Source: Stomoxys calcitrans
Taxonomy: Eukaryota > Arthropoda > Insecta > Diptera > Muscidae
NCBI RefSeq assembly: GCF_963082655.1
Contig: NC_081553.1
Coordinates: forward strand, 60,457,071 to 60,521,070
Direction: 5' to 3'
DNA length: 64,000 nt
Shown: piece after piece, positions 1,341 to 64,000 of the stretch
Layout: every line of letters begins with the position of its first letter
Position numbering within the stretch: position 1 is the stretch's first letter
Program-made: the position numbers and the translations under genes
Notes under the pieces: generated by a model
Databases searched by the model: none
Seen by the model: only the letters and a program-made list of their open reading frames with translations
What the model was told of the DNA's origin: nothing

Positions 1341-1776
1341 CACAGTGGAAGAAATTTGAAAAAAAAAGATTAAAAAATATCCCGTGTGTGAAGGGGTAGA
1401 GATATCTCTTTGAAATTTGGAATGGTAAGAGATGCCAGCTTCGAGGCTGTAGGTTGTCCGGGCGCATTTTGGCAGGCTCCTAAATTAGGTCACCTCGGTA
1501 TTTCGAATATTGGTTGGGGCTGTCAAATCTTTGTTTGTGGTCCGTTTTCCAACATTTTATTTTTTGCTGGTTAGTCTACAACATCTCGTCTTGTTTCGGG
1601 GATACCCAACTTTTAATTTTATTTTTTTGAAATTTTGAGACCTGCTTCGTATTTTGCAATTTACGAAGGCGGTTTTCGGCTCGGTTTTCATTTTTATGCA
1701 TGATTTCAAAGAGATATCTCTGCCCGTTCTCACAGGAAATATTTGTGACTAGTTTTTCCAGTTCTATCGCACTATG
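1341..1776. mobile_element. Non-autonomous Transib-like element (MITE, 436 bp)
   Basis: It begins CACAGTGGAAG and ends CACTATG, so the outer heptamers are CACAGTG and CATAGTG when both are read inward. The flanking 5-mers are CGGCG (1336-1340) and AGGCG (1777-1781), one mismatch apart and fitting the GC-rich CGNCG target known for Transib. About 50 bp in from each end lies the same inverted block, AGAGATATCTCTTTGAAAT (1398-1416, and reversed at 1703-1721). There is no coding capacity. It differs from the full Transib at 46129 beyond the heptamer, so another Transib lineage probably mobilised it. Family assignment rests on heptamer, target duplication and symmetry. Confidence 0.6.
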
Positions 1777-1781
1777 AGGCG

Positions 1782-3078
1782 TTTTCGTTTGATTTTTTTT
1801 TTTATTTTCTTAAACTTTTTTTGATTCCTATTGATTAAGGAAATTCATTGGATGCTGTAAATTTCGAGTTCGATTTCTTAGAAACAGATTGAGCGCCAAA
1901 CATCCTTTTCACCAGGGATAAGGGGCTACAATTGGTCTTTCGTTAATTTCTACATTAACATACTTGGCAATATTTCTTTAAAATTAGACATCCCATCGCT
2001 GCAAATGACAATTTGTTCAAGAGCGGCTACAAACAATAAAAGCCAAAAAGAAATAAAACGATTTAAATGCGAGTTTTTCCTTAAAAAGAAAGAAACCCTT
2101 TTGTAAGGATTTCAGCGCGACAACGACAGCATTACCAAACAACCCCAAAAAGAAAATCTCTTCTACATCGCTGATAGGTGTGACGCTTCAAGTGATTGAT
2201 GAAATAAACGACTTTTTAGCAAAATACTCCAAATAACACCACACGCCAACCAAAACAAAGCTAACAAAATAGAAATAAAACGCAAATCTTAATGTTTTCA
2301 TATCAAAAAGTTGTTTAGAAGCGTTCAAGTCAAACATGCGAGCAAAGATTTCCAAACATCGTAAAATCTTCACATAAAAAAACCCATGGAAACTTACAAA
2401 GAGAAGTAGGGGCGGACGGGCGTTTGGATGGATGAAAAACAACGTCTGACAATGAAGACCAAGCAAGTAGCGAGCTAACGCCAAACTAATTTCCACATTT
2501 TTCACATTTGTTAAGACAAATTGAGGTGCAAACATAGGTCAAAATAATAAAATGTCAGAAAAAGGACTCATTCGCTCGAATACAAGGAGCAAGGACCAAC
2601 GAAATAAAATAAATAGTACTTTGAGAGGGGGGGAAATAGCAAAAGGAGTAGCGCAAGGCAAACATACACTCACACACTAGCACATCGTGGATGCACACAT
2701 ACTACAAATCTTAAGAAGTCAAAATCATCAACAAAAGGGGTGTAGCCACTGTCGTCATGGATAATTGGGTAGCAGACACAGGCACAGTGGCTATATGCAG
2801 ATCTCATGAGTCAGGACTATCTTCGTTATATTGCATTACAATTTTTGGAAAATATGATAACTGTGTGCTGGGGGGAGAGCGGGGGGTATATAGGACATAA
2901 CAATTGAACAACTTTTCATTTGCATCTTTAACCTAATTTTCATTGAGAGCGATGTAAAGCTCTTTCCATATTTGTATCTACCTCCAATTTACTTTTATTT
3001 GAGTCATATTTTTTCGATCAGCCATCATGTCCTTTCAGGATGTTCTGAAGGCGGTGGATAACCCTCTGACAAAAATGG
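1782..3078. other. AT-rich intergenic DNA, no recognised gene
   Basis: I see no repeat family or convincing gene here. A minus-strand open frame of 115 codons (2188-2535) encodes a hydrophobic, Phe/Leu-rich peptide. It has no motif I recognise and no splice or promoter context, so I do not call it a gene, although a fragment of a multi-membrane-spanning protein exon cannot be excluded. Confidence 0.5.
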
Positions 3079-3079
3079 G

Positions 3080-3164
3080 ATTTTTCCCTCGAATATTCCA
3101 TTAAGAAACAGGGGGCGAACTTTTCAATGAGTGCTGCCCCATTCGACTTTATGCTCAATATAAG
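3080..3164 (-). repeat. SINE tail fragment
   Basis: Reverse complement of the 3' half of the local tRNA-headed SINE: it carries the 'ATTCCATTAAG', 'CAGGGG', 'TTTATGCTCAAT' blocks seen in full copies. It abuts the plus-strand SINE at 3165, so two SINE pieces lie back to back in opposite orientations. Confidence 0.6.
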
Positions 3165-3449
3165 GGAGGCCACCGCAGCGCAGAGATTATCATGTCCGCC
3201 TATGACGCTGAACGCCTGGGTTCGAATCCTGGCAAGACCATCAGAAAAAATTTTCACCGGTGGTTTTCTCCTCCTAATGCTGACAACATTTGTAAGGTAC
3301 TATGCCACGTAAAACTTCTCTCCAAAGAGGTGTCGCACTGCGGCTCACCGTTCGGACTCGGAGGCCCCTTATCATTGAGCTTAAACTTGAAGTTTGCCCC
3401 TGTTCCTTAGTGGAATGTTCATGGGCAAAATTTGCAAAAAAAAAAAAAT
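3165..3449 (+). repeat. tRNA-derived SINE with poly(A) tail
   Basis: The head resembles a tRNA gene: an A-box-like block (GCGCAGAGATTATCATG) and a B box (GGTTCGAATCC) 35-40 bp further on, the internal RNA polymerase III promoter. The non-tRNA body runs through 'GTGAGGTACTATGCC'-type sequence and 'TTATCATTGAGCTTAAAC', and ends GGGCAAAATTTGC followed by a 13-A tract. Nine copies or fragments of this family lie in the window. Confidence 0.8.
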
Positions 3450-3489
3450 ACGGGACTTCCGAGCTGAGTCCAAACAGTGCCACAGTATG

Positions 3490-4985
3490 ACCTCTCTTTG
3501 GAGATTTAATCATGTTTCCTTATAACGCTCCCTAATTCCATGGAAATTTTTCGATAGTGATGGGTATACATCCAATATTGACACAAGATCAAGGCTTACA
3601 CCCGATCTCGCAAGCATGTCCGCCTTCTGATTTCCCATAATATCCTTATGTGCAGGAACCCAACATAAAGCCGAAGTCAATTTAAGAAATCTCGACAGCG
3701 ACCAAAAACCTTAGATCTTATCGTACCAATTAAACCTTTCAATACTGTTTGACTATCGCTGTACATACAGATTTTAGATTGAGCTTTACCTCTGGATAGG
3801 ACAATCTCTGCAGCCCTAGTTATCGCAAAGACCTCTGCCAGGAAAATGCTGCAGTCGTCACACATTCGCAAAGAGGCGTTGATGTCAAGAACTCCGCTAT
3901 ATATGTCACAACCGGTCCCATTCTCCATCTTAGATCCAACTGTAAATTAATTCAGATTGAAAATGCAGAGTCCTCTCTACCTTTATAAACAAATCGATCG
4001 GCTGGATTCCGTTCATAACCCCTAGGGATCTTGTCGCAGTAGTACCCATAGCCCAAGTCATGAATCTCAAGGCAACCCTTTTAACCCTGTCTAGATCGCG
4101 CATATGTGTCCCTTTATCCATCACCAGCTACCAAACATGAGAGCCGTGCCTCAGAACTGGCCTTCCCACCTCCCAATACAGCCGGTGCATGAACCTAGGT
4201 CGTGGACCCCACATCCTATAAGCTTCTGACAGGCGTAAAACGCCGCAAAGGCCTTTCCCCGGGAGGTTTTATTCAAGTTCAAGTTCCGATTTAGCCAACT
4301 TTACTACTCCCTACTCGTGGGTAGTTCGAACTCCGAAATACTCTTTTTTCCTTATGAACTAGACCAGTTCCGTCATCCTAGGATTAATCCTTTGCTCACA
4401 ATCCGATATTGTGTCTAGAAATTTACCCATAACGAGAATGAAAAGGTCATCCTCCAAACTGAACAGGATGTGAACTACAAGAATCCATACCAGCATTGAA
4501 ATGATGCCGCCCTGAGGTGCACCTGAGATGGCGTTAACACTTTCCCTCTTTCGACCAACACTGTCCATGATTTCTCAATGCGAAAGCATTCTCATTAAGT
4601 AAACTATCACGCTATCATCCACATCTGCATCCAGTAACGCTCGCTCAATTGCAGACACATAAATATTGTTAAAGGCTTCTTCAATATCGAAAAAAGCCGC
4701 CAAGGCGAATTCCTTATAATCCAGTGGCCTCTCAAGGTGATGCGCCACACTATGCAGAGCAGAGTCCACCGATCTGCCCCCTATATGCGTGCTGAAATCT
4801 AGAGAAGTTAAACTCCCCAAGTTTCAAATTTCTCTCCAATGTCTCCAATGACAGAAGGAGGAGAGACAGATCGGTCTCAAATCCTTGGCCGCCCTTAAGT
4901 GCAGCTTCCTTGCCTTCTGTATAAACATCACCTTACCCTCCTCCAAGATTGAGGTACATATTTGAACTTCTCATTTTCGTTTGAA
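3490..4985 (-). pseudogene. Decayed non-LTR retrotransposon (RT and RNase H)
   Basis: Reading the minus strand from about 4820 downward, conceptual pieces in different frames give reverse-transcriptase signatures: a 'FDIEEAFNN' palm-like stretch (4575-4820), a 'GAPQGG' block (4359-4568), a connecting region (3930-4124), and an RNase H domain with 'MYSDSQTVLKG' (3677-3928) continuing to 'WVPAHKD', 'ADMLAR' near 3560-3650. Frameshifts and stops separate the pieces and I could not find the YxDD box. Domain order and the RNase H place it in the LOA/I/R1-type LINEs. It is dead. Confidence 0.7.
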
Positions 4986-22170: not shown

Positions 22171-23890
22171 CGTTTGTTGCAGATTGACGTATGTAATAAA
22201 CAAATTTCACATTCTTATTTGGTTTTTAGGACAACATATAGAGGGTATAGGAATATGGGATATGAGGCGTATATTAAACTGGTCATTCCGTTTGAAATAC
22301 GTCGAAATATAGATCTGATAAAGAGTAGGACATTCAGCGAACTGCTCAAATACAAACAGCACGCCTATGTCAAGGGAAGGTCGGTGAAGACTGTCCTGCA
22401 CGAGGTTGTACATAAAATAGAAGAATCCTTCGATGCCAAGACTTACACATTGACATCGAGCTGGCGATTAACAATGTGCGGACCGACACATTGATCCAAT
22501 CTTGAGACCAGTACTGGATGGAACGGGTCCTTAGAGACTGCATACACCATATGCTAAGGAACAGGTTATCCAAATAAGGGAGAAAGGGTGAAAAGTGGCT
22601 CGGAGCACTGTATAGGGGGACATTTTATGGCTACTGCTTTGGGTGACCACCATAAATAAATTATTACGAATGCTGACTGAGGACTTTGATTCTGCCTGCT
22701 ATGCAGACGATGTTATAATACTTCTTAGGGGCAAGGATCTGAACCAGCTATGTAGAAGGGCCGAAAGGGTTCTGCATATGGCATATGACAGAGCTAGACC
22801 CAGGGGTCTAAATGTTATCCCAGAGAAAACTGGAATCTGCCTGTTCACGGGGAGGACAAAGGTGGGCCCACGTTTCCTTAACAAAACAATTTTGATAACT
22901 GGCAAGGTCAAATACTTAGGAGTGATCTTAGACAGGAATCTGAATTGGAAGTGACACATTCAGGAGTGTTCTGAGAAGGCTTACAGTCGTTGGGCACTAT
23001 ATAGACGGGCAGTAGGCTCGAAATGGGGCCTGAATGCGAGGACAGTCTACAGGCTCTACAGGAGCGTGAATGGACCAATACTTACCTCAGAAGTTTGGTG
23101 GACTGCTATGGAAAAAAAGTGCAACATAAGGACCAAACAACAGGTTCATACAACATGCTGTCTTGGCATAGGAGGAGTGATGAAGACCACACCCACTAGG
23201 GCACTGGAGACTATCTGACCGATAGACATACAGATTAAGTGTAAGGCAGCCATTGCTACTTTTAGACTTAAGGCGATGGGAGAATGGAAAGAGAATAGGA
23301 GAAGTTCATACCAACGCGGTATAATCGAGGCGTCGATAGGAAACCTGGAAGGAGGGAAATAGGTTCCCGATCGTATACCTGAGATGAACCTTGAGGTCGT
23401 GTGCGAGGCACTGCTGCCAGCGGCATAGTCTTGGACTGACGGAACCCTAGTATTGCCATCTGGAAGATCATGTTACACGAATGGGTCAAAGCTTGAGGAC
23501 GTAGTGGGCCTGGGGCTTTACATTGAGAACCCAGGTACTGAGATCTTTTTTAGACTAAATGACTTTAAAACGGTCCTGCAGGCGGATATCCGCGCGTTCA
23601 CGGAATGCGTGAGGTGGTGTGGTGCTAACGCGAGGAGGTCGATTGTGAACATATTTACGAACAGTAAAATTGCCATAAGGGCAATAACAACCAGGACGAT
23701 ATTAATGGCTTCTCTAATCCGCATCGTGTGGGTGCCGGCCCAAAACGGAGTAAGAGGGAATGAAAGGGCAGACGATTTGGCGGTGGAGGCCAGAGTACTG
23801 CCGTCAATAAACTTGGTTACCCCGAAACCTTTCCGGTCGATGCAGTGCGATCTTCGTCTGTCTAGACGTGGCCTTGTTTCTAAACTGCTG
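22171..23890 (+). pseudogene. RNase H-type LINE, RT to RNase H, broken
   Basis: 22174-22494 encodes part of the RT ('HAYVKGRSVKTVLHEVV'). 22643-22954 carries the RT catalytic box CYADDV (22700-22711) and 'KVKYLGVILDRNLNWK'. 23453-23899 carries an RNase H domain ending 'VWVPAQNGVRGNERADDLA'. Frameshifts and stops separate them. Both expected RNase H acidic positions are changed (YTNGSK for YTDGSK, FTNSK for YTDSK), so the domain would be inactive even if expressed. LOA/I-type LINE by domain order; 5' half absent. Confidence 0.75.
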
Positions 23891-23899
23891 CTTACTTAA

Positions 23900-31139: not shown

Positions 31140-33243
31140 CACCTAAATGTCGGTGCCTGTCAGCCGCGAAAGTCCCAAATTTCGGCGAAATCGGACAATA
31201 ATTGCCCATTTTATGGGCCCAAAACTTTAAATCGAGAGATCGGTCTATAGCTATATTCAAATCTGGCCCAGCCAAATTGAAGGGGGTTATTGATGGGTCC
31301 CTATACAACTTACTATCCCAAATTTCCTCTAAATCGGGCGAAAAATGAGCCTTTTACATGCCCAAAACCTTAAATCGAAAGATCGGTCTATATGGCGGCT
31401 ATATCGAAATCTGGATCGATCTGAGCCAAATTGCAGAATGATGTCGAAGAGCCTTAGGCAACCCAATGTCCCAAATTTCGGCGAAACCGATCAATATACC
31501 CGCCTTTTATGGGTCCAAAACCTTAAATCGAAAGATCAAATGTCGAAGAGTCTAAAACAACCCGCTGTCCCAAATTTCGACGAAACCGGACCCAAAACCT
31601 TGAATCGCAAGATCGGTCTATATGTCGGCTATATCCAAATCTGCATCGATCTGAGCCAAATAGCAGAAAGTTGTTAAAGAACCTAAGACAATCCACTGTC
31701 ACAAATTTCGGCGACATCGGACAGTAAATGCTCCTTTTATGGGCCCTTAACCTTAAATCGAGAAATCGGTCTATATGGCGGCTATATCCAAATCTGGACT
31801 GATCTGGGCCAAATTGAAGAGGGATGACGAAGGCCCTAATACAACTCCCTGTCCCAAATATCGGCGAGAACGGACAATGAGTGCGACTTTTAGGGGCTCA
31901 AGATCTTAAATCGAGAGATCGGGCTCTATGGCAGCTATATCCAAATCTGGACTGACCTGGGCCAAATTGAAGAGGGATGTCGAGAGGCCTAACACAACTC
32001 ACTATCCCAAATTTCGGCAAAATCGGACAATAAGTGCGAATTTTAGGGGCCCAAGATCTTAAATCGAGAGATCGGTCTATATGGCAGCTATATCCATACC
32101 TGGACCGATCTGGGCCAAATTGAAGAGGGATGTCGAGAAGCCTAACACATCTCACTATCCCAAATTTCGGCGAAACGGACAATAAGTGCGAATTTTAGGG
32201 GCCCAAGATCTTATATCGAGAGATCGGTCTATATGGCAGCTATATCCATATCTGGACCGATCTGGGCCAAATTGCAGAAGGTTATCGTGGGGCAAAATAC
32301 TACTCACTGTCCCGAATTTTGGCGACATCAGACAATAAATGGGCTTTTTATGAGCTCAAAACTTTAAATTGGGAAATCGGTCTATATGGCAGCTATATCC
32401 AAATCTGGACTGATCTGGGCCAAATTGAAGAGGGATGTCGAAGAGCCTAACACAACCCATGGTCCCAAACTTCGGCGAAACCGGACAATAAATGCGCCTT
32501 TTATGGGCCCAAGATCTTAAATCGAGAGATTGGTGTGTATGGCAGCTATATCCAAATCTGAACCGATCTGGGCCAAATTGAGGAGGGATGTCGAAGAGCC
32601 TAACACAACTCATTGTCCCAAATTTCTGCGAAATCGGACAATAATAGGGCTTTTCATGTGCCCAAAACCTTAAATTGCGAGATCGGTCTATATGGCAGCT
32701 ATATCCAAATTTGAACCGATCTGGGCCAAATTGAAGAGGGATGTCGAAGAGCCTAACACAACTTACTGTCCCAAATTTCGGCGAAACCGGACAATAAATG
32801 CGCCTTTTATGGGCCCAAAATCTTAAATCGGGAGATCTGTCTATATGGCAGATATATCTATATATGGACCGATCTAGGCCAAATCGCAGAAGGATATCGA
32901 GTTACCAAACACTATTCACTGTCCCGAATTTTAGCGACATCAGACAATAAATTGGCTTTTTATGTGCCTAAAACCCTAAAATTGGGAGATCGGTCTATAT
33001 GGCAGCTATATCCAAATCTGCACCGATCTGGGCCAAATTGAAAAGGGATGTCGAAGAGCCTAACACAACTCATTGTCCCAAATTTCGGCGACATCGGACA
33101 ATAAATGCGCCTTTTATGGGCTCAAAACCTTAAATCGAGAAATCGGTCTATATGGAGGCTATATCCAAATCTGAACCGATCAGGTCCAAATTGAAAGAGG
33201 ATGTCGATTAGCCTAACACAACTCGCTATACCAAATTTGAGCC
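31140..33243 (+). repeat. Satellite-like array of DINE-type units, about 150 bp
   Basis: About fourteen tandem units. Each holds 'AAATCGAGAGATCGGTCTAT', 'ATGGCAGCTATATCCAAATC', 'GATCTGGGCCAAATTGAAG', 'GATGTCGAAGAGCCTAACAC' and 'CCCAAATTTCGGCGAAATCG', spaced roughly 150-157 bp. It lacks the DINE hairpin and tail, so only the internal array is present. The same array, reversed, fills 62200-64000. Reading frames across it are periodic artefacts. Confidence 0.8.
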
Positions 33244-38292: not shown

Positions 38293-40697
38293 TCTTATAC
38301 ATAAAAATCAATTTGTGTTTGTTTGTAGGTTTGTTTGTTTGTTTGTATGTTTGTGTGTTCCTTTAGACTCAGAAACGGCTGAACCGATTTTCTTGAAATG
38401 TTCACAGATGGTACATATTGACCCCGTGGTGAAAATAGGGTACTACATTATCTGATATCTGAAGGGGGGCGGACCCTCCCCCTTACCCTAATTTTCAGGA
38501 ACGCCAGATCTCGGAGATGGGTGGTGCGATTTAAGCGAAATTTTGTGTGCTCTCATATAGTATGTGCTCTCATCATATAGTGTGTGCTCTCATATAGTAC
38601 CCTAAAACTAAAAATTTGGTATCCAAATTTCGGATGGGGTACCTAGGGGGGCCGCCCCATCCTAAAACCTACCAAACATATATTTAGACCAATCTCGACA
38701 ATATGGGACTTAAATGAAAGGTATTTAGGATAAGAACACCTATCTGATATCCAATTGTCGGACCAAGTGCTAGGAGGACCACTCCAAGCGCCAAAACACC
38801 CCTAAATCGGACATAATTACCGACCATGGCAATATGGGACTCAAATGAAAGGTATTTGCGAGTATAATACGAATCTGATATCCAAATTTGGGTCCACGTT
38901 TCTGGGGGTCAACCCCTTTCCCAATACACCCCCAAACAGGACTTATTTACTGACCATGGCAATATGGGGCTTAAATAAAAGGTATTTTAGTATAGAATTC
39001 GAATCTGATATCCAAATATGAGACCAAGTGTTTGGGGGGCCGCCCCAAACTCTTGGTCTCCCCAAAAACCTCCCTCAAAGGGGGCACATTTACGACCATA
39101 GCCACATGGGGCTCAAATGAAAGGTCTTTGGGAGCAAAGCACAAATCTGATATCAATATTCGGGAAAAGTGTGTATGGGGCCACCCCCACAATACCACCC
39201 AACCCCCAAAACACCCCAAAATCGGACATATTTACCGAACATGGCAATATGGGACTCAAATTAAAGGTATTTGGGAGTAGACCACGTATCTGATATCAAC
39301 ATTAGGGACCAACTGTCTTAAAGAGAGTGATACTAAATATTTATAGTTTTTAGGACCAATTCCCCAATCCGGAGGCCACCGTAGCGCCTATGACGCTGAA
39401 CGTCTGGGTTCGAATCCTGGCGAGACCATCACCATTAGGCTTTTCCCCTCCAATTGCTGGCCACATTTGTTAGGTACTATGCGCCTATGACACTGAACGC
39501 CTGGGTTTGAATCCTGGCGAGACCATCACCATTAGGGTTTTCCCCTCCTAATGCTGGCAACATTTGTGAGGTACTATGCCATGTAAAACTTCTCTCCAAA
39601 GAGGTGTCTCACTCCTTATCATTGAGCTTAAACTTGAATCGGACTGCACTCATTGATATGTGAGAGTTTGCCCCTTTTCCTTAGTGGAATGTTCTTGGGC
39701 AAAATTGGCATTTTTACCCCAAACCGGACATATTTGCTGACTTTTGCAAAAGGAGTTTAAATGAGATTTGGAAACGAATTTGATATCCAATTTTGAGGCC
39801 AATGGCAATATGGGGTTCAAATAAATGATATATAGATATATGAGAATAGAGCACGTTGCTGATATATTTTCCGGGCTTAGTGTTTGGGGGACCACCCCAA
39901 TCCCCAAAACACCCCCAAATCGGCCATATTTACCGCCCATGTCAATGTGGAGCTTAAATGAAAGGTATTGGGTGGTAGAGCAAGAATTGATACCCATTTT
40001 CGGGACCAATTTTCTGGGGGTCTACCCCTTTCCCAAAATACCCCACAAACAGCCATTTTTTAGTGACCATCGCAATATGGGGCTCAAACAAAGGTATTTG
40101 GGAGTAAAATACGAATTTGAAATCTAAATTTACGACCATGTATTAGGAGCCTCACCCCTTCCACAAAACACCCCCTAAGCTGTAAAAATTTTTCGACCAT
40201 GCCAATATGTGGCTCAAATGAAAGGTATTTGAGATTAGAAAACGAATTAGATTAACTTTTTTGGGGCTATGTGGTTGGGGGACGCCTCATCGTGTAAACT
40301 GCCCTAAACCAATGGCAATATGGGGTTTAAATAAATGGTATTTGAAAGAAGAGCCCTATGCTGATATTTTTTCAGGGCCAAGTGTCTGGGATGAGATGGT
40401 CACCTCATCCCCGAAGACACCACTAAATCAGATATCAAGAGAATATCGGGCTGAAATAAAGTATTTTAAGAATGGAGTACACCTTACATCCAAACTTAAA
40501 TTCGTCGACCAATAAAGATCATATGGGATTCGGATAAAGGCACTTATATTGTTAAACTGTTAGTCAAGCGATATACTATTTTCGTATTATGGTATTTCAC
40601 TAAAAGATCCTTAATTGTCGAAAATAAATATTCCAAGGAAACTTTTGTTCCATATAAAGTAAAAGAAGGCGCAGCGGAGCGGGCCCCGGTCAGCTTG
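38293..40697 (+). mobile_element. Helitron-like element, plus orientation (2405 bp)
   Basis: Starts TCTTATACATAAAAATCAA after host A, and ends 'CGGAGCGGGCCCCGGTCAGCTTG' (shown in part) before host T. The 3' tetranucleotide is CTTG, a one-base decay of the CTAG seen in other copies. The body carries the family's units reversed ('CAATATGGGACTCAAATG', 'AAAGGTATTTGGGAGTA'). A SINE is inserted at 39371-39715. It sits within a reversed DINE-1-like tail. Confidence 0.6.
39371..39715 (+). repeat. SINE with duplicated tRNA-like head
   Basis: The segment from GCGCCTATGACGCTGAACG to 'TTAGGTACTAT' (from 39384) is repeated at 39481, spacing 97 bp. The copy therefore has two B-box regions (GGTTCGAATCC and GGTTTGAATCC) but no full A box ('GTAGCGCCTATG' lacks the central part). 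The body and tail are normal. Confidence 0.75.
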
Positions 40698-44995: not shown

Positions 44996-45505
44996 TAGCA
45001 TTTCGCCATTACAGCCTCTGTACCAGAAATGCCCGTCGAGCCCTCTCCGCCAAGAAGCCAAACGCATCACATGATGACTGGTTTTTTTGGTATCCTCTGT
45101 TTTGCTTTTCCATTGCAAAAACCTTCGATCATTCGAAAGAGAAATAATCACAGACTACATATTGCATATCATTGAGATTTTACAAGCGTAGCTAACTAAA
45201 ACAACACCGATATGACACAACAAACAATTTATGGCATTATAAGTACATTGAACACTATCGGATTGTGGTCCATGACAAATGCCCAAACCAAAAATGTCAC
45301 CCCTAAGTATATTCCCAGGAAAATCATCGCAAATCATTATGGTATGAATTTTGCACACTTTTCCTAAAAACCAAATCAATGGTGAAATAGGGTCACACAA
45401 TAGTGACACATTTCAACATTATCGTAAGGGAAAAAAGGAAATGTCCGTTACGAAAATTTGTTACACTATTGCCTTGAAGGAGAAAGTTTTAATTTTTCAT
45501 ATATA
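44996..45505. other. Intergenic DNA between two MITEs
   Basis: No repeat or gene recognised. It separates two MITEs of opposite orientation. Confidence 0.45.
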
Positions 45506-45742
45506 TTGGGTTGCCCAAAAAGTAATTGCGGATTTTTCATATAGTCGGCGTTGACAAATTTTTTCACAGCTTGTGACTCTGTAATTGCATTCTTTCTTCT
45601 GTCAGTTATCAGCTGTTACTCTTAGCTTGCTTTAGAAAAAAAGTGTAATAAAAGAATATTTGATAAAAGTTCATTCTAAGTTTTATTAAAAATTCATTTA
45701 CTTTCTTTTAAAAAATCCGCAATTACTTTTTGGGCAACCCAA
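45506..45742 (+). mobile_element. mariner-type MITE, copy 4
   Basis: 237 bp, TTGGGTTGCCC...GGGCAACCCAA with TA on both sides, in plus orientation relative to copy 1. Very similar to copies 1 and 5. Confidence 0.9.
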
Positions 45743-45786
45743 TATGATTTTCTATCTAATTTCATCGAAATTTATGGTAGCTATCG

Positions 45787-46123: not shown

Positions 46124-46128
46124 CGTCG
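46124..46128. other. Transib target-site duplication, left
   Basis: CGTCG directly before the element's CACAGTG. The same CGTCG follows the right end at 51478-51482. The 5-bp GC-rich CGNCG form is the known Transib target. Confidence 0.9.
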
Positions 46129-47563
46129 CACAGTGGGCCAAATGGCAAAAAAATTGGAAATAAGTCTACAACTTTTTATCTGTTGATTTTAGCCATACAA
46201 AATGTTCTAGACATTTGTAGAGGAGGACATAGGCTTTCAGAAAAGTGCTGTTGTTGGTCCATATCTTTAATACAGGGTGAGCTACAGGGTGTCAAAGTTG
46301 ACCACTTTTGACTTCTCCAAGCTTCTGGGGGCCATAACTTTTGATCTACTCAACCGATTTACATGATTTAGGACTCTAGAGAAAGAGCTTGACAAGATCT
46401 AAAAAACTTATGCATAAAGTACCATGCCATCGTGTACTGTTAAGGAGTTATGAATTGTTTAATTTTAAAATATGAAAATTTGGCCTTGGTTTTTTTCAGT
46501 GTTTTTTAAATAACTCCGTCAATTTTAAAGCTATAAACTTCATACTTCACACAAATTATGCCAGCATATGTGTGCATAAAATACAAAAGGAATCACGTGA
46601 ATATCTTTGGCGGTTTAAAAATGGCATCGTTTTCAATATGAAAAATATTTTTTTTGTCAAAAAATTGCAAAATTTTTCAAAAAAGATACTCCCATTTCCT
46701 TTAAGTTTTCGCAAACTTTGGCCGTCAAAGCATTATCATTTCTTTCCATTTTCACAAAGTCGAGGTATTAAGAAAAGTTTTAAGTGCTAATTTGGCTAAT
46801 TTCGATATCAAACAACACCGTTATCTTAAGACCAAAATGGCCAATTTTTTTACTAAACTTCAAAAGTTTCTCACTGGAAAAAAAGTTCCACGGGGATTTT
46901 TTCGCTTTTTTTTAACTTAAATGAAAGCTTAAAATGTTCCCAACATTTTAAGGTATGTCTCGCCATATCCTAGCCATAAATGAGATCGTAGCGATCAAAA
47001 TACTGAAAAAAGTCAATTTTCAAGTAGTGCTATATTCATTGCTAAAAAACAAGTATTACGTCACATTTTATTGCAAAGATGTTAAATAAACTTTTATTTG
47101 GTAACACTTCTTCTACAAAACACAAAAAGAATCATGGAAATATCTCTATTCTATTCCATTTTATGGAACCGGCAATAAAAAAGTCAATTTTTCAAAAAAG
47201 TCGAATTTCCCAAATTTTGTTTTTGTTGTCCTAATTGCACATGACACACTATAGCCATATTTACGCAACATACCTTATCGTAAAGGAAATTTTCATACCT
47301 TTCCAACGATGTATAAAACATTTCTCAACTCGGATTCTATCTACTCTAAAATTCATTTACACTTCATTAAACTCTATATAAAAATGTCTATTTGTGAAAT
47401 GGAACCTTATATGGGGCCTACACTAAAACATTGATAGATTTGCCCAGGGTTTACAATACAAATGTGTTAGAATAAAAAAAGGTCTCCTTCCAAAGTTTAA
47501 AAAAATTGGAATAAAAATATGTGTTTTAGAGCGAAAACACTTCGCATCGGCGTGCGTTTGTAT
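46129..47563. repeat. Transib terminal inverted repeat, left arm
   Basis: Starts CACAGTGGGCCAAATGGCAA and ends near 'CATCGGCGTGCGTTTGTAT'. It matches the reverse of 50044-51477 nearly base for base, including an identical 72-codon frame mirrored at 46572-46790 and 50816-51034, which is an arm by-product and not a gene. Confidence 0.9.
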
Positions 47564-47785
47564 AGTACCTACATCTATTTTTAATGTAAGCTGATGATTT
47601 TTGAATAAAAAGTAACCTAGAAATATACCTGCATATATATATATATTTGTGTTAAGATTTGATGCAGACAAATGTTACCTGTTTCGCTATGTCGAATTCC
47701 CAGGAAATCCACCGTATCAATGAATGTGAAAAAACCTACCCATAAAAAATTCATTGTCATTTTTTTTAACCAAATTCGAGTCCAG

Positions 47786-47931
47786 GTAAATAATTATAGA
47801 AGAGTAAGTAAAAAGAGGCACTTTGGACCCCTTTTTACGATTGCGTCTGATACCTGAAATGGGTCATTAATTGTGAATATATTGCATAAATATTTGAACA
47901 AAATCCAAATTTTCTTCATTATATTTTGTAG
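47786..47931 (+). other. Possible 5'-UTR intron of the transposase gene
   Basis: A donor-like CAG|GTAAAT at 47784-47791 and a pyrimidine-rich acceptor 'TTCATTATATTTTGTAG' ending at 47931 could frame a 146-bp intron just before the coding frame. The frame starts downstream of the acceptor, so the protein does not depend on splicing. Inference only. Confidence 0.3.
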
Positions 47932-47955
47932 AGGCGTAAAGGACATTTATAAGTT

Positions 47956-49998
47956 ATGGAAGTCATACTGAAGTATTCCACTCTTTCGAAAATTGTATGG
48001 GACATCAAAAATGATTCCAAATCATACACGGAGTCATTTAAGGAACTTGTTTACACTTTGGACCACATATATGGAATAAGGCTAAATAAAGACGCTTTAG
48101 ACAAACTTGAAAAATTCTACAAATCATTTGAGAGAAGGTTGCCAGAATGTTCATTCGCAAAAATCAAGTTTTTCAAAATGTATGAGAAGTGGCTGAAATC
48201 GGATCTACTTATTGAAATTAAACCGCTGATTCCCGGCCGGCCTAGCAAAGCATACGACGAAGTTACGGAGAAAACCAAAAAGAAAAAACAAGAGGAACTA
48301 TTGGCGGCACATCCGCCAAATTTAATAAAAGATACGTTCAAAACAGCATTGTTAAAAACACAACCAAAAAATGTTGGACGAATTGTCGATGTTTTACCAT
48401 TAGCATCTCCGAAAAGGGGAAAGAGAATGGTAGAAAGTATTCCAACTCCAAAATCGACTACAGAATTCACGGAGGAAGATGCACTGGCCCTGATTTTGAA
48501 CCTAGGCCTCTCAAGAAACAAATACTCAACAATGAGGAAGGCTCTTCGTGAAAAAGGATGGGGTTGTTTACCCTCAAAACATAAATTGTACAACACCAGG
48601 ACGAAAATGGTGCCATCAAATATATACGTGGACGAATTAAAAGCAAGAGTGAAACTTGCTGATCTTGTTGAAAATACAGCTGTTAGAATTATTTCTAATT
48701 TTACTGAAGAACAGTTGAACACATGTAATAATTCCGAAGTGGTTTTGATCAGCAAATGGGGTTGTGATGGATCATCTGGATTTTCCGAATATAAGCAACA
48801 AACAGAAATAGATACCAACTTCGCATCAATTTTCATGGCATCATTAGTACCATTGAGAATGAGATTGTACAAGGACCAATCTTCATCATCGAAAGAAAAT
48901 GCATTTCAAGATATATGGATAAATAGAACACCTGGGTCAAAATATTTATGTCGCCCAATTCGGTTTGAGTATACAAAGGAAGACCGGAACACAACACGAT
49001 CTTTGGTGAACGAAATAAAGGAAGAAATTGCTGCATTACCCATGATTGTTATAAACCAATTGGGAAGAAATATAAAAGTTTCGTTTCAACTACAACTCAC
49101 TATGATCGATGGAAAGGTGGCAAACGCATTAACTGGCGTTATGTCCAATTGGAGATGCAATATTTGTGGCAAGAAGAATGGGCAATTCGAGGACAAGTCT
49201 GATGAAAATTTAGTAAACGAAAATGCGCTCAATTTCGGTATTTCGCCCCTGCACTGTAGAATTCGATTCATGGAGTATTGTTTGCATTTATCGTATGACC
49301 TTAAATATCGGACTAGCCCTGGAAACCGCGATGTCTCTGCTAGAAACAACCAAGATCTTCACAAAATGAGGCAGGAAGAGAAGAATCGAATCCAGTTGGA
49401 GTTTAAACAAAAGGGACTTATAATAGATAAACCTCTTTACGGATACGGAAGCACAAATGATGGCAACTCGGCAAGGCGGTTTTTTGAGGACCCCGTATCG
49501 ACATCTAAAATAACCGGTCTTGATGAACACTTGCTAAGACGATTCAAAGTGATTTTGGCTGTAATCAATAGCAAAAAGATGATAAATTCAACCAAATTTG
49601 AAGCTTATAGTAATGACACAAAAAACATTTTATCTGATTTATATTCGTGGAAAGCTTTAACACCGACAGTACATAAAGTCTTACATCATGGCAAGGAAAT
49701 TGTGGAATACAACATACTTCCGTTAGGAGAACTTACAGAAGAAGCTCAGGAATCCCGTAATAGAGATGTTAAACAGTTCCGGCTTTTCAATACCCGAAAG
49801 AGCACCAAATTTAACCAAAATTATGATTTACTTCAATATTTATTGTTATCGTCTGATCCGGTACTATACAGCATCAGAACTAAATGGCTACCAAAAATAT
49901 GTGACGATATAGATAAGGACGATCCCGATGCCATTCAAATTAAAGAGCTTTTAAATTTTGATACCTTAGATTATTTGGTAGAGAATAAAATCAAATAA
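47956..49998 (+). CDS. Transib transposase (RAG1-like DDE recombinase), 680 aa
   Basis: Cut-and-paste transposase acting on the CACAGTG ends. An in-frame TAA at 47950 fixes the ATG. In order: basic N-terminal region with Lys-rich stretch (106-112); a helical DNA-binding-type segment 'ALALILNLGLSRNKYSTMRK' (176-195); first catalytic Asp D271 in 'GCDGSSGFSEYKQ'; second Asp D385 in 'MIDGKVANALT'; a CxxC pair C401/C404 ('CNIC'); an HxxxxH pair H573/H578 that with CxxC forms the RAG1/Transib zinc site; and the catalytic Glu at E596 (or E595) in 'LGELTEEAQESRNRD'. The length fits the family (about 650-700 aa). The RING and other N-terminal parts of RAG1 are absent and there is no RAG2-like partner. 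All hallmark residues present; no disabling change. Confidence 0.93.
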   Translation: MEVILKYSTLSKIVWDIKNDSKSYTESFKELVYTLDHIYGIRLNKDALDKLEKFYKSFERRLPECSFAKIKFFKMYEKWLKSDLLIEIKPLIPGRPSKAYDEVTEKTKKKKQEELLAAHPPNLIKDTFKTALLKTQPKNVGRIVDVLPLASPKRGKRMVESIPTPKSTTEFTEEDALALILNLGLSRNKYSTMRKALREKGWGCLPSKHKLYNTRTKMVPSNIYVDELKARVKLADLVENTAVRIISNFTEEQLNTCNNSEVVLISKWGCDGSSGFSEYKQQTEIDTNFASIFMASLVPLRMRLYKDQSSSSKENAFQDIWINRTPGSKYLCRPIRFEYTKEDRNTTRSLVNEIKEEIAALPMIVINQLGRNIKVSFQLQLTMIDGKVANALTGVMSNWRCNICGKKNGQFEDKSDENLVNENALNFGISPLHCRIRFMEYCLHLSYDLKYRTSPGNRDVSARNNQDLHKMRQEEKNRIQLEFKQKGLIIDKPLYGYGSTNDGNSARRFFEDPVSTSKITGLDEHLLRRFKVILAVINSKKMINSTKFEAYSNDTKNILSDLYSWKALTPTVHKVLHHGKEIVEYNILPLGELTEEAQESRNRDVKQFRLFNTRKSTKFNQNYDLLQYLLLSSDPVLYSIRTKWLPKICDDIDKDDPDAIQIKELLNFDTLDYLVENKIK

Positions 49999-50043
49999 TA
50001 CAAAACTAAAATGCTTTTTTATTTTGGGAGTAGCTAATATACA

Positions 50044-51477
50044 TATAAACGCACGCCGATGCGAAGTGTTTTCGCTCTAAAACACACATTTTTATTCCAA
50101 TTTTTTTAAACTTTGGCAGGAGACCTTTTTTTATTCTAACACATTTGTATTGTAAACCCTGGGCAAATCTATCAATGTTTTAGTGTAGGCCCCATATAAG
50201 GTTCCATTTCACAAATAGACATTTTTATATAGAGTTTAATGAAGTGTAAATGAATTTTAGAGTAGATAGAATCCGAGTTGAGAAATGTTTTATACATTGT
50301 TGGAAAGGTATGAAAATTTCCTTTACGATAAGGTATGTTGCGTAAATATGGCTATAGTGTGTCATGTGCAATTAGGACAACAAAAACAAAATTTGGGAAA
50401 TTCGACTTTTTTGAAAAATTGACTTTTTTATTGCCGGTTCCATAAAATGGAATAGAATAGAGATATTTCCATGATTCTTTTTGTGTTTTGTAGAAGAAGT
50501 GTTACCAAATAAAAGTTTATTTAACATCTTTGCAATAAAATGTGACGTAATACTTGTTTTTTAGCAATGAATATAGCACTACTTGAAAATTGACTTTTTT
50601 CAGTATTTTGATCGCTACGATCTCATTTATGGCTAGGATATGGCGAGACATACCTTAAAATGTTGGGAACATTTTAAGCTTTCATTTAAGTTCAAAAAAA
50701 GCGAAAAAATCCCCGTGGAACTTTTTTTCCAGTGAGAAACTTTTGAAGTTTAGTAAAAAAATTGGCCATTTTGGTCTTAAGATAACGGTGTTGTTTGATA
50801 TCGAAATTAGCCAAATTAGCACTTAAAACTTTTCTTAATACCTCGACTTTGTGAAAATGGAAAGAAATGATAATGCTTTGACGGCCAAAGTTTGCGAAAA
50901 CTTAAAGGAAATGGGAGTATCTTTTTTGAAAAATTTTGCAATTTTTTGACAAAAAAAATATTTTTCATATTGAAAACGATGCCATTTTTAAACCGCCAAA
51001 GATATTCACGTGATTCCTTTTGTATTTTATGCACACATATGCTGGCATAATTTGTGTGAAGTATGAAGTTTATAGCTTTAAAATTGACGGAGTTATTTAA
51101 AAAACACTGAAAAAAACCAAGGCCAAATTTTCATATTTTAAAATTAAACAATTCATAACTCCTTAACAGTACACGATGGCATGGTACTTTATGCATAAGT
51201 TTTTTAGATCTTGTCAAGCTCTTTCTCTAGAGTCCTAAATCATGTAAATCGGTTGAGTAGATCAAAAGTTATGGCCCCCAGAAGCTTGGAGAAGTCAAAA
51301 GTGGTCAACTTTGACACCCTGTAGCTCACCCTGTATTAAAGATATGGACCAACAACAGCACTTTTCTGAAAGCCTATGTCCTCCTCTACAAATGTCTAGA
51401 ACATTTTGTATGGCTAAAATCAACAGATAAAAAGTTGTAGACTTATTTCCAATTTTTTTGCCATTTGGCCCACTGTG
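50044..51477. repeat. Transib terminal inverted repeat, right arm
   Basis: Reverse of 46129-47563. Differences noticed include A/G near 50298, T/G near 50120 and a T/C change near 50692. It ends 'GCCATTTGGCCCACTGTG'. Confidence 0.9.
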
Positions 51478-51482
51478 CGTCG
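51478..51482. other. Transib target-site duplication, right
   Basis: CGTCG, identical to 46124-46128. Confidence 0.9.
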
Positions 51483-52849
51483 TTCATGAATTCCCATAAC
51501 TGGTGCCTGAGCATTAGCATCTCTCTTCACAATGAGGTTCTTCTTTAGGTTGGAAGGCGGCATATCTGGGGCATGGTTTCAACTTTGTCTTCAGCGCCCA
51601 AGAGATAAAAACGGATAAGCACAGTGACTTACTAAAGTGACCCAAATAATTAAGCCTCTTACCAAAGGCATTTGTCAAAGGTACCTTCTGTTGGATAAAC
51701 AAATGGCCACAAAACTATTACCGAAATCTATTACCAAAGACATTTCAATTATTTTTCATCAAAAAAAAAAAAAAAAAGAAAATAAAAGAGCTAGGTGGAG
51801 GACCCCTTTTCATCCGGATGACAGAAATGCGTACCTTGAACTAACAAAATGACAAATTCACTGCGTAAAATAATAAAATGGCCAAAACCAAGTGACAGTT
51901 TCCGGTAGCATTTAAAAGCCAACATAGATGAACATACACCCCATATAAATGGGGTCCATAGTGACGATGATGATGCTGAGGATGATGATGATGATGCTGA
52001 GGATGATGATGATGATGCTGAGGATGATGATGGTGATGATGATGATGATGATGGTAAGGATGATGATGGTGATGCCGAGGATGATGATGATGATGGACAT
52101 GATGCTTGAAGAAATAAGTGAAGTAAAGTCTCAGGCCTATGTATGTATGACAGTAGGTGGCTGCGTGTGGCTATGTTCCGGCCATGTCATTGAACCCCAA
52201 CTTACCGGTCTCTGACTTTTTGATGTATAACAGTCACCGTGAGCCAGAGACCAAGAAAAATTACCAAATGTCCATTTGATAAATGATGCTAACCAAAAAG
52301 GACATAAGTTGGTAATTTTCTACAACATTTATTTTCGTTTTCTTTTGCAATTTTCCGGCCTACGACGTGAGCAATGCAGGTTTTCATTATTGGCATGAGA
52401 GGACTAAGACCTTCATTCAAACGGACAAAGTAATTTCCTACTCGTTGAAGAGGAGTCATTTTGTCATTTTGTTTTTTTGCTTTTTTGGAAATTGTTAATA
52501 TCCGAAAAGCTGGCCTGCTGCTCAGAACACGGATACAATGTTGACATCCTTACGACGTGTGCTATGCAAAAGTATGCCCTACCAATCAAGATTAGGTGGT
52601 TGCTCATATGTGAGAGTATGTGTGCGAAGGACATGCGGGCATCAAATTGCCTTTAAGTTTTTGGTGGGATTCTATTTTCATTTATCAATCATTGAAAAGG
52701 TTACCCAAGATTTATTTTAGGATTTATCGAACATACAACTAATAGATGTTGAAGTATGTGATGACATGTTGCTGTTGTTGTGGCTAACAGTGATGCTTTG
52801 CTTTCATTGACTGGCAATGTAGAATTTTGAGTAGGGAATCGTTTTTGTA
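51483..52849. other. Intergenic DNA with minisatellite, no recognised gene
   Basis: Host-like sequence continuing from the left flank of the Transib insertion. It contains a 15-A run at about 51762-51777 and the GAT-rich array at 51961. Short frames have no motifs. Confidence 0.45.
51961..52100. repeat. GAT-rich microsatellite/minisatellite
   Basis: (GAT)n with a higher-order 27-bp period at its left part ('GATGATGCTGAGGATGATGA', peaks at about 51968, 51995 and 52016). Translated it gives Met/Ile or Asp runs, which explains the low-complexity frames on both strands. Confidence 0.85.
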
Positions 52850-58616: not shown

Positions 58617-59057
58617 ATGTCATCAGTTGTTGTTCCAAAAATCATTCATGCTGTGCACCAACTGATATTGCAAGATCGTCATGAACATTTGACCGTCAAA
58701 AAAATTTGTTTGCGTTGGATCCCACACAATTTGTCAATTGCTCAAAAAAGGGCTCGTATCGATCAGTGGAAAGAAATGCTCTGCTGCATTTTTGAGCACA
58801 TCGATGTGATGAGTCATCTGCCGTATAGTCTTGACTTGTCACCGAATGACTTCTTTTTATTCCCGTATGTAAAAAATAATACCAGAGGTCAACATGTTTC
58901 GACACCTGAAGAAGCGGGTGATGCATTCAGAATGCATGTTTTGGAGATACATCAATCAGAGAGGCAAAGGTGCTTCGAAAATTGGTTCAAGCACATGCAA
59001 AAGTGTAGAGATTTTAATGGGGAATATTTTAAAAACCAAAAAAGCGATTTTCGATGA
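58617..59057 (+). pseudogene. Internally deleted mariner transposase
   Basis: 146-codon frame joining two separate parts of a mariner transposase. Residues about 14-55 match the DNA-binding/linker part ('HEHLTVKKICLRWIPHNLS', 'AQKRARIDQWKEML'). From residue about 60 it jumps to the C-terminal catalytic part ('MSHLPYSLDLSPNDFFLFPY' holds the third Asp of the D,D34D triad, then 'FRMHVLEIHQSE', 'NWFKHMQKC'). The region with the first two Asp residues is deleted in frame, so it cannot transpose. The C-terminus is natural-looking. Confidence 0.8.
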
Positions 59058-62036: not shown

Positions 62037-64000
62037 TATATAGAATATATATTCTTGATCAGCGTAAAAATCTAAGACGATCTAGACATGTCCGTCCGTG
62101 TGTCCGTCTGTCTGTTAAAATCACGCTACAGTCTTCAAAAATTGAGATATTGAGCTGAAACTTTGCATAAGCAGGTTAAGTTCGAAGATGGGCTATATCG
62201 GACTATATCTTGATATAGCCATCATACAGACCGATCCGCCAAGTTAGGGTCTTAGGCCCATAAAAGTCACATATATTATCCGATTTTGCTGAAATTTGGA
62301 ACAGTGAGTTGTGTTAGGGCCTTCAACATCCTTCGTTAATTTGGCCTAGATCGGTCCAGATTTGGATATAGCTGCCATACCGATCCTCCGATTAAGGGTC
62401 TAAGGCTAAAAAAATCCACATTTATTATCCGATTTTGCTGAAATTTGGGACAGTGAGTTGTGTTAGGGCCTTCAACATCCTTTGTTAATTTGGCCTAGAT
62501 CGGTCCAGATTTGGATATAGCTGCCATATAGACCGATCCTCCGATTTAGGTTCTTAGGCCCATTAAAGCCACATTTATTATCCGATTTTGATGAAATTTA
62601 GGACATTGAGTTGTGTTAGGGCCTTCAACATCCTTCGATAATTTGGCCCAGATCGGTCCAGATTTGGATATAGCTGCCATATATACCGATCCTCCGATTT
62701 AGGGTCTTAGGCCCATTAAAGCCACATTTATTATCCGATTTTACTGAAATTTGGGACAATAAGTTGTGTTGGGCCCTTCGACATCCTTCTTCAATTTGGA
62801 TCAGATCGGTTCAGATTTGGATATAGCTGCCATATAGGCCGATCCTCCGATTTAGGGTCGTACGCCCACAAAAGCCACATTTATTATCCGATGTGGGTCT
62901 TAGGCCCACAAAAGCCACACTAATTATTCGATTTAGCTGAAATTAAGTACAGTGAGTTGTGTTACGCCCTTCGACATCCTTTGTCAATTTGGCCCAGATC
63001 GGTCCGGATTTTGATATAGCTGCCATATAGACCAATCCTCCGATTTAGGGTCTTAGGCCCATAAAAGCCACATTTATTATCCGATTTTGCTGAAATTTGG
63101 GACAATAAGTCGTGCTACGCCCTTCGAAATCCTTCTTCAATTTGGCCCAGATCGGTTCAGATTTGGATATAGCTGCCATATAGACCGATTCTCCGATTTA
63201 GGGTCTTAGGTCCATAAAAGCCACATTTATTATCCGATTTTGCTGAAGTTTGGGACAGTGAGTTGCGTTAGGGCCTTCAACATCCTTCGATAATTTGGCC
63301 TAGATCGGTCCAGATTTGGATATAGCTGCCCTATAGACCGATCCTCCGATTAAAGGTCTTAGGCCCATAAAAGCCACATTTATCATCCGATTTTGCTGAA
63401 ATTTGGGACAGTGAGTTGTCTTAGGCCCTTTGGCATCCTTCGTCAATTTGGTTCAGATCGGTCCAGGTTTGGATATAGCGGCCAGATAGACCGATCCTCC
63501 GATTTAGGGTCTTAGGCCCATTAAAGCCACATTTATAATCCGATTGTGCTGAAATTTAGGATAGTGAGTTGTCTTAGACCCTTTGACATCCTTCGTCAAT
63601 TTGGCTCAGATCGGTCCAGATTCGGATATAGCTGCCATATATACCGATCCTCCGATTTAGGGTCTTAGGTCGAATAAAGCCACATTTATTATCCGATTTT
63701 AATGAAATTTGAGACAGTGAGTTATGTTAGACCCTTCCACATCCTCCGATAATTTGGCCCAGATCGGTCTAGATTTGGATATAGCTGCCATATAGACCGA
63801 TCCCCCGATTTAGGGTCTTAGGCCCATAAAAGCCACATTTATTATCCGATTTTTCTGAAATTTGGGATGGTGAGTTGTCTTAGACCCTTTGTCATCCTTC
63901 GTCCATTTGGCCCAGATCGGTCCAGATTTGGATATAGCTGCCATATAGACCGATCCCCCGATTTAGGGTCTTAGGCCCAAAAAAGCCGCATTTATAATCC
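62037..64000 (-). repeat. DINE-type satellite array, reversed, running off the window
   Basis: Starts with a reversed tail ('ATATATATTCTTGATCAGCG', 'GACATGTCCGTCCGTGTGTC') and continues as about twelve units of about 150-155 bp ('GATATAGCTGCCATATAGAC', 'CGATCCTCCGATTTAGGGTC', 'CCACATTTATTATCCGATTT', 'GCTGAAATTTGGGACAGTGA'). Reverse-strand relative of the array at 31140-33243. Continues past the right edge. Confidence 0.8.

Follow-up and report, generated by a model that had tools for sequence, protein, structure and literature searches.

The window analysed here is a 64,000-nucleotide stretch of the Stomoxys calcitrans genome. At positions 46129-51477 it contains a complete transposable element of 5349 bp, which on its sequence is assigned to the Transib superfamily (see below) and whose coordinates had been given exactly in a sequence-only reading of the same DNA. 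The target site duplication CGTCG, also claimed there, is present on both sides of the element (46124-46128 and 51478-51482; read from the sequence, with no strand assigned). The left inverted arm (46129-47563, + strand) and the right inverted arm (50043-51477, - strand) are 1435 bp long each, so the length of 1434 bp first reported was nearly right, and the "about five" differences between them proved on alignment to be exactly five, at arm positions 785, 1180, 1361, 1391 and 1432. A repeat finder returned 1441 nt for the arms of this copy because the flanks, including CGTCG, also nearly mirror each other. Both ends of the element carry the heptamer CACAGTG (46129-46135, + strand; 51471-51477, - strand), whose letters we take to be identical to the consensus RSS heptamer; about 11-12 bp inward of it there is an A-rich stretch, in which the best nonamer match is only 6/9.

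The unique middle of the element (47564-50042, + strand, 2479 bp) contains the transposase gene as its single long sense frame (47956-49998, + strand). This frame encodes 680 amino acids of the Transib/RAG1 type and, as had been stated, is intact, being open throughout. The other ORFs of at least 80 aa are three antisense frames inside the transposase gene (251 aa, at 48117-48872 on the minus strand, 87 aa and 80 aa) and an 82-aa frame across the left arm border. Neither the 251-aa nor the 82-aa frame had a Pfam match, and no gene for a RAG2-like partner was found among the unspliced ORFs of at least 80 aa.

Among proteins of solved structure the best relative of the transposase was HzTransib of Helicoverpa zea (PDB 6pqn/6pqx; E 6.9e-84), which could be aligned over residues 165-643 and shares the catalytic and zinc residues. 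Matches to RAG1 and amphioxus RAG1L were far weaker. The Pfam search returned RAG1 (24.1 bits, slightly under the cut-off of 25) and three weak unrelated models. The protein search suggested at the outset thus led to HzTransib and then to RAG1, with nothing outside Transib/RAG1 preferred. The AlphaFold2 model of the transposase (mean pLDDT 86) gave a similar picture: the first hit of the fold search was HzTransib in the hairpin-forming complex (6pqx; TM by target 0.91, rmsd 3.1), followed by many RAG structures, RAG1 and BbRAGL among them, and all 49 matches at E <= 0.001 were HzTransib or RAG. Identity to HzTransib in the structure alignments was about 33-36%. When 60 of the 120 listed proteins were placed in a tree, the database entry of the window transposase itself (P0001) adjoined P0003 within a supported clade of ten members, which includes P0024 from Eumeta japonica; the contigs that carry the closest listed relatives (P0002-P0022) are shorter than 4 kb.

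The catalytic triad of HzTransib is given as D126, D225 and E436 (PMC6941560). In the alignment these residues (chain numbering 17 lower) correspond to D271 (codon 48766-48768), D385 (49108-49110) and E599 (49750-49752), all on the + strand; the three assignments rest on this alignment and on conservation. Conservation was assessed in 42 proteins, the window transposase plus a choice of 41 of the 120 listed relatives. D271, C401, C404, H573, H578 and E599 were invariant, and D385 and E596 were conserved in at least 90%. The triad proposed earlier was D271, D385 and E596. Its two aspartates align with HzTransib residues, but the catalytic glutamate is predicted to be E599, three residues from E596, because HzTransib E436 aligns there and E599 is invariant whereas E596 is only nearly so. 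The proposed zinc set fared better: C401 and C404 (49156-49167, + strand) and H573 and H578 (49672-49689, + strand) all align with residues of HzTransib. Their role in zinc binding is presumed by comparison with RAG1.

By every testable feature the element belongs to the Transib superfamily. It encodes a DDE transposase homologous to Transib transposases, its two ends start with CAC as part of an RSS-like heptamer, as described for Transib ends (PMC7204232), and the copies are flanked by 5-bp target site duplications that are GC-rich in the 20 whose composition was counted. A P-type transposase, as expected for Galileo and the P superfamily, was not indicated by the solved-structure matches, which comprised only HzTransib and RAG1, and the convergent RAG1L and RAG2L gene pair that characterizes RAGL transposons was not found among the unspliced ORFs of the element.

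To estimate the size of the family, the genome was searched with short patterns. The first 44 bp of the element, allowing up to three mismatches, were found 785 times in forward and 783 times in reverse orientation, and chance matching can be excluded because the reversed pattern, used as control, gave 0 matches against these 1568 ends. Three arm segments yielded 763 + 772, 773 + 773 and 754 + 760 matches, and a 44-base segment of the ORF, also with up to three mismatches, 380 + 365 = 745. Among the 100 listed places, all of which were exact end matches, there were 48 end pairs: 41 were spaced between 5271 and 5431 bp (25 of them exactly 5349 bp), five between 3372 and 4425 bp, and two farther apart (7024 and 14584 bp), the latter probably containing other insertions. 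The ORF segment was present in at least 44 of the 48 paired copies, among the matches listed. Since the counts of ends, arms and ORF segment agree, the other copies whose mapping had been proposed amount to a family of about 780, in which full-length copies and not miniature derivatives predominate. By arithmetic the family totals about 4.2 Mb, or about 0.4% of the 1.07-Gb assembly. Viral contigs scanned for the family gave three pattern stretches and no relative.

Altogether 29 copies were examined (the window copy, 20 others and a later set of eight), and 28 of them were read at both ends; L024, whose left end lies beyond its stretch, was left out of this count. Besides the window copy the 28 sequenced copies comprise 19 that headed a list ranked by protein score and the eight later ones, which were taken from the end-pattern matches and are absent from that list. 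Except for the window copy, every copy sequenced or typed comes from the initial 71 Mb of a single contig (C1). The frame was open over all 680 residues in each of the 65 scored copies (the best 65 of 1493 first-look candidates). Compared with the majority of 20 copies, individual copies carried 0-7 substitutions (3-7 in the eight later ones), and copies differ by about 0.1%. These low numbers of substitutions point to a very recent burst of the family. With an intact transposase, intact ends and recent, near-identical copies, the element looks like a full-length autonomous transposon and, judging from the burst, is possibly active, which strengthens the previous suggestion of a possibly active RAG1 relative.

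Some features of single copies were also recorded. The window copy has Gly at residue 155 (codon 48418-48420), where the majority has Val; this is unique among the 28 copies, and L041 carries a different change at the same base. In L024 (C1:65467200-65476700) the left arm is split by about 1.7 kb of foreign sequence, a nested insertion. An excess of private changes in the arms over the ORF (30 vs 1) was discarded as an ascertainment artefact of the protein-ranked list, because the eight copies from outside that list carry ORF variants freely.

Each of the 28 copies with both ends read had a perfect 5-bp duplication, whose composition in 20 of them was C (18), G (16), any base, C (17), G (19). 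A GC bias of targets has been noted for Transib, ProtoRAG and RAG (PMC8289069). Empty sites were sought by comparing 20 joined junctions with the window and the fetched stretches, and for 5 of the 20 relatives spanning the junction were found. The expectation of empty sites with a single target was borne out for two of these (L012 and L027), in which the pentamer was kept once, but not for the remaining three (L011, L019 and L026), whose spanning relatives do not have the pentamer. The insertion site of L012 belongs to a satellite of about 150 bp, that of L027 to a different repeat; uninterrupted relatives of these sites with a single target are found, for example, at 33029-33147 and 40008-40124 of the window. 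The empty sites are thus paralogous repeats, not orthologous alleles. Arrays of the approximately 150-bp satellite occupy 31700-33200 and 62200-64000 of the window and also occur around L012, L013 and L019.

The arms had been described as far longer than is usual for Transib. This is true in comparison with two further Transib families in this genome, represented by the loci L049 and L050, which likewise have CAC heptamer ends and GC-rich 5-bp duplications (one copy of each was read). The L049 element (1411-4647) is 3237 bp long and its ends match over only 14 bp; the L050 element (1569-4469) is 2901 bp long and its ends match over only 12 bp. The protein of the L049 family (P0054) is 35% identical to the window transposase, and that of the L050 family is 40% identical to P0054. 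These families, too, have near-identical copies (a 576-aa frame at 100% in 20 rows, a 657-aa frame in 29 rows); several recent Transib families seem to coexist in the fly. L051 was recognized as another copy of the long-armed family. The 13-bp ends of TransibSU-1_PM, described as analogous to known Transibs (PMC4411706), are similarly short. The statement does not hold in general, however, as HzTransib, which has the same 5-bp type of duplication, is reported to have "long TIRs", their length being given only in a figure (PMC1852546). Long arms in Transib are therefore, on that description, not wholly new. HzTransib is 3518 bp long with a deduced protein of 489 aa (PMC1852546), as opposed to 5349 bp and 680 aa in the Stomoxys family.

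Very long inverted repeats are also known in Galileo (P superfamily) and foldback-like elements, in Galileo of about 0.3-1.26 kb, and recombination and conversion between the inverted repeats have been proposed there (PMC3573991). Galileo is the nearest parallel found, albeit in an unrelated superfamily with an unrelated transposase. A further difference is that in D. mojavensis the Galileo copies with the longest arms are described as never nearly complete (PMC3573991), whereas the Stomoxys copies with 1.4-kb arms are full length. In the openly licensed literature we found no description of the long-armed family or of arm conversion in Transib, and no report linking Transib with Stomoxys; the stable fly genome paper places its repeat analysis in a supplement (PMC7944917).

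Comparison of the 28 sequenced copies suggested that the two arms evolve together. Variants shared between copies were found at arm positions 165, 380, 596 and 1180. The paired sites are 3-5 kb apart in the DNA, yet the letters in the left and the right arm agree (r2 0.72, 0.70, 1.00 and 0.33, respectively), and when the right arms were shuffled among copies, the observed sum was reached in none of 20000 permutations. Sites 380, 596 and 1180 were typed in addition by genome pattern searches, without selection by ORF (site 165 was typed in the 28 sequenced copies only). The copies typed in this way are those at the first 100 listed places, none of which lies beyond the first 66 Mb of C1. The following arm states were obtained (left and right letter, number of copies): at site 380 AA 34, TT 12 and mixed 3 (same letter in 46 of 49 copies, Fisher p 1e-8); at site 596 GG 36, AA 11 and mixed 1 (47 of 48, p 5e-10); at site 1180 GG 23, AA 19 and mixed 7 (42 of 49, p 4e-7). 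One of four haplotypes was present in both arms in 36 of the 46 copies typed at all three sites.

Since a new mutation hits one arm, each mirrored variant requires transfer from arm to arm. Mirrored variants were found at seven arm positions (three shared variants, three private ones and site 1180), from which we infer that the two arms of one copy exchange sequence. Independent parallel mutation was rejected as their source, as it would be needed at all seven positions. The many mirrored copies go back to few independent conversion events, because each conversion is later inherited. Mirroring of the shared variants is incomplete (3 of 4 copies at site 165, 7 of 9 at 380 and 5 of 5 at 596), and at site 1180 all four arm states were observed. 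At site 1432, four bases from the inner border, the arms are mismatched in 27 of the 28 copies. Homogenization is thus strong at the outer-half sites 165, 380 and 596, less pronounced at 1180 and almost lacking at 1432. A Hudson-Kaplan test on nine sites indicated at least six exchanges, under the assumption of no repeat mutation, which conversion itself breaks. Low r2 within arms was not accepted as proof of free recombination, for the derived letters mostly exclude each other.

In our judgement it is highly probable that this is a full-length, autonomous-looking Transib with 1435-bp arms, present in about 780 recent copies, whose arms exchange sequence, likeliest by gene conversion. The transposase would most likely recognize the CACAGTG termini and nick there, after which hairpins would be made on the flanking DNA and the element excised; this chemistry is modelled on HzTransib and RAG, nick-hairpin cleavage with hairpins on flanking DNA having been described for HzTransib (PMC6941560). 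The excised element would then be joined to CGNCG-like targets with a 5-bp stagger. Of this scheme the ends, the target preference and the paralogous empty sites were seen directly. Copy number probably rises when, after excision, a sister or homologous copy serves as template for repair of the gap. Gene conversion between the arms, acting more strongly in the outer arm than at the border with the middle, would keep the arms near-identical and thereby preserve the giant palindrome.

A possible but rather doubtful variant of this scheme is that homogenization takes place during transposition and not as slow background conversion. Both broken ends might copy the same template arm in gap repair, or the excised strand might fold on itself and mismatch repair even out the arms. 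This would fit the distribution of variants in the 28 sequenced copies, where the three clear shared variants are all mirrored (none was never mirrored), as opposed to 3 mirrored and 27 one-armed among the 30 private variants (Fisher 0.0037). The gradient from the most homogenized outer half to the nearly unaffected site 1432 is also as expected if exchange starts from the cut ends. However, ordinary conversion may simply have had longer to act on the older variants, three of the private variants already occur in both arms, and a sample of three shared variants is small. It is conceivable, at similarly modest odds, that homogenization is part of replication, one arm being rewritten from the other, inward from the cut ends, whenever the element transposes and the gap is repaired. 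If so, kilobase inverted arms would be inherited as a single unit, an arm mutation could spread only when mirrored in the other arm, and the giant palindrome would maintain itself; the element would be a RAG-type cut-and-paste transposon with an arm-templated copying step.

Reshuffling of arm states by inversion, with crossing over between the arms flipping the middle, is an unlikely substitute for gene conversion. At site 1180 two of the nine mismatched copies (C1:4278610 and C1:5107766) are in reverse phase relative to the ORF and site 1432, as a single crossover between 1180 and 1432 would give, although repeated conversion could also produce them. In bacterial insertion sequences the inverted ends of an element are known to recombine with each other, which is reported to lead to inversion and not to homogenization of kilobase arms (PMC3004938). 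Inversion merely swaps the arms; it cannot put a new variant in both and leaves the GG and AA copies unexplained. Gene conversion between the arms accounts for these copies and remains the preferred explanation.

An assembly artefact of palindromic DNA is a very improbable source of the arms or of their identity. Long palindromes are indeed hard for assemblers, and base errors could account for some of the private one-armed variants, but in 28 of 28 copies these arms are found again, each time at a different site with its own flanks and a perfect duplication, and are not an accident of one assembly spot, the counts of ends, arms and ORF agree, and arms still mismatched at 1432 in 27 of 28 copies have not simply been merged. 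It is hardly credible that the element is not a Transib but a RAG-like transposon (RAG1L-RAG2L) or a RAG1 relative that has been domesticated, for in spite of the model's similarity to RAG1 and BbRAGL and the weak Pfam RAG1 score below cut-off, HzTransib matches far better, no second gene is apparent among the unspliced ORFs of at least 80 aa, and hundreds of copies speak against domestication.

RAG1 is thought to share its origin with the Transib group. The approximately 780 near-identical copies (745 with the ORF segment by pattern count) can be regarded as a natural experiment on how a RAG-type transposase deals with hairpin-prone ends. The same applies to the rise in copy number and to the response of the host to arms from which long double-stranded RNA might arise. 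Through the mirrored variants, exchange between arms becomes measurable from one genome, and the short-ended Transib families of the same genome are possible internal controls.

Other sequences of the window include a short element with perfect 35-nt inverted ends (45503-45745), which resembles a mariner-type MITE, and a GATGAT-type microsatellite near the long-armed element (51962-52100). A 146-aa ORF at 58617-59057 had no Pfam match at 0.01; we take it to resemble a fragment of a mariner transposase. An ORF at 23453-23899 contains an RNase H domain (E 4e-7) and is perhaps the remnant of a retrotransposon.
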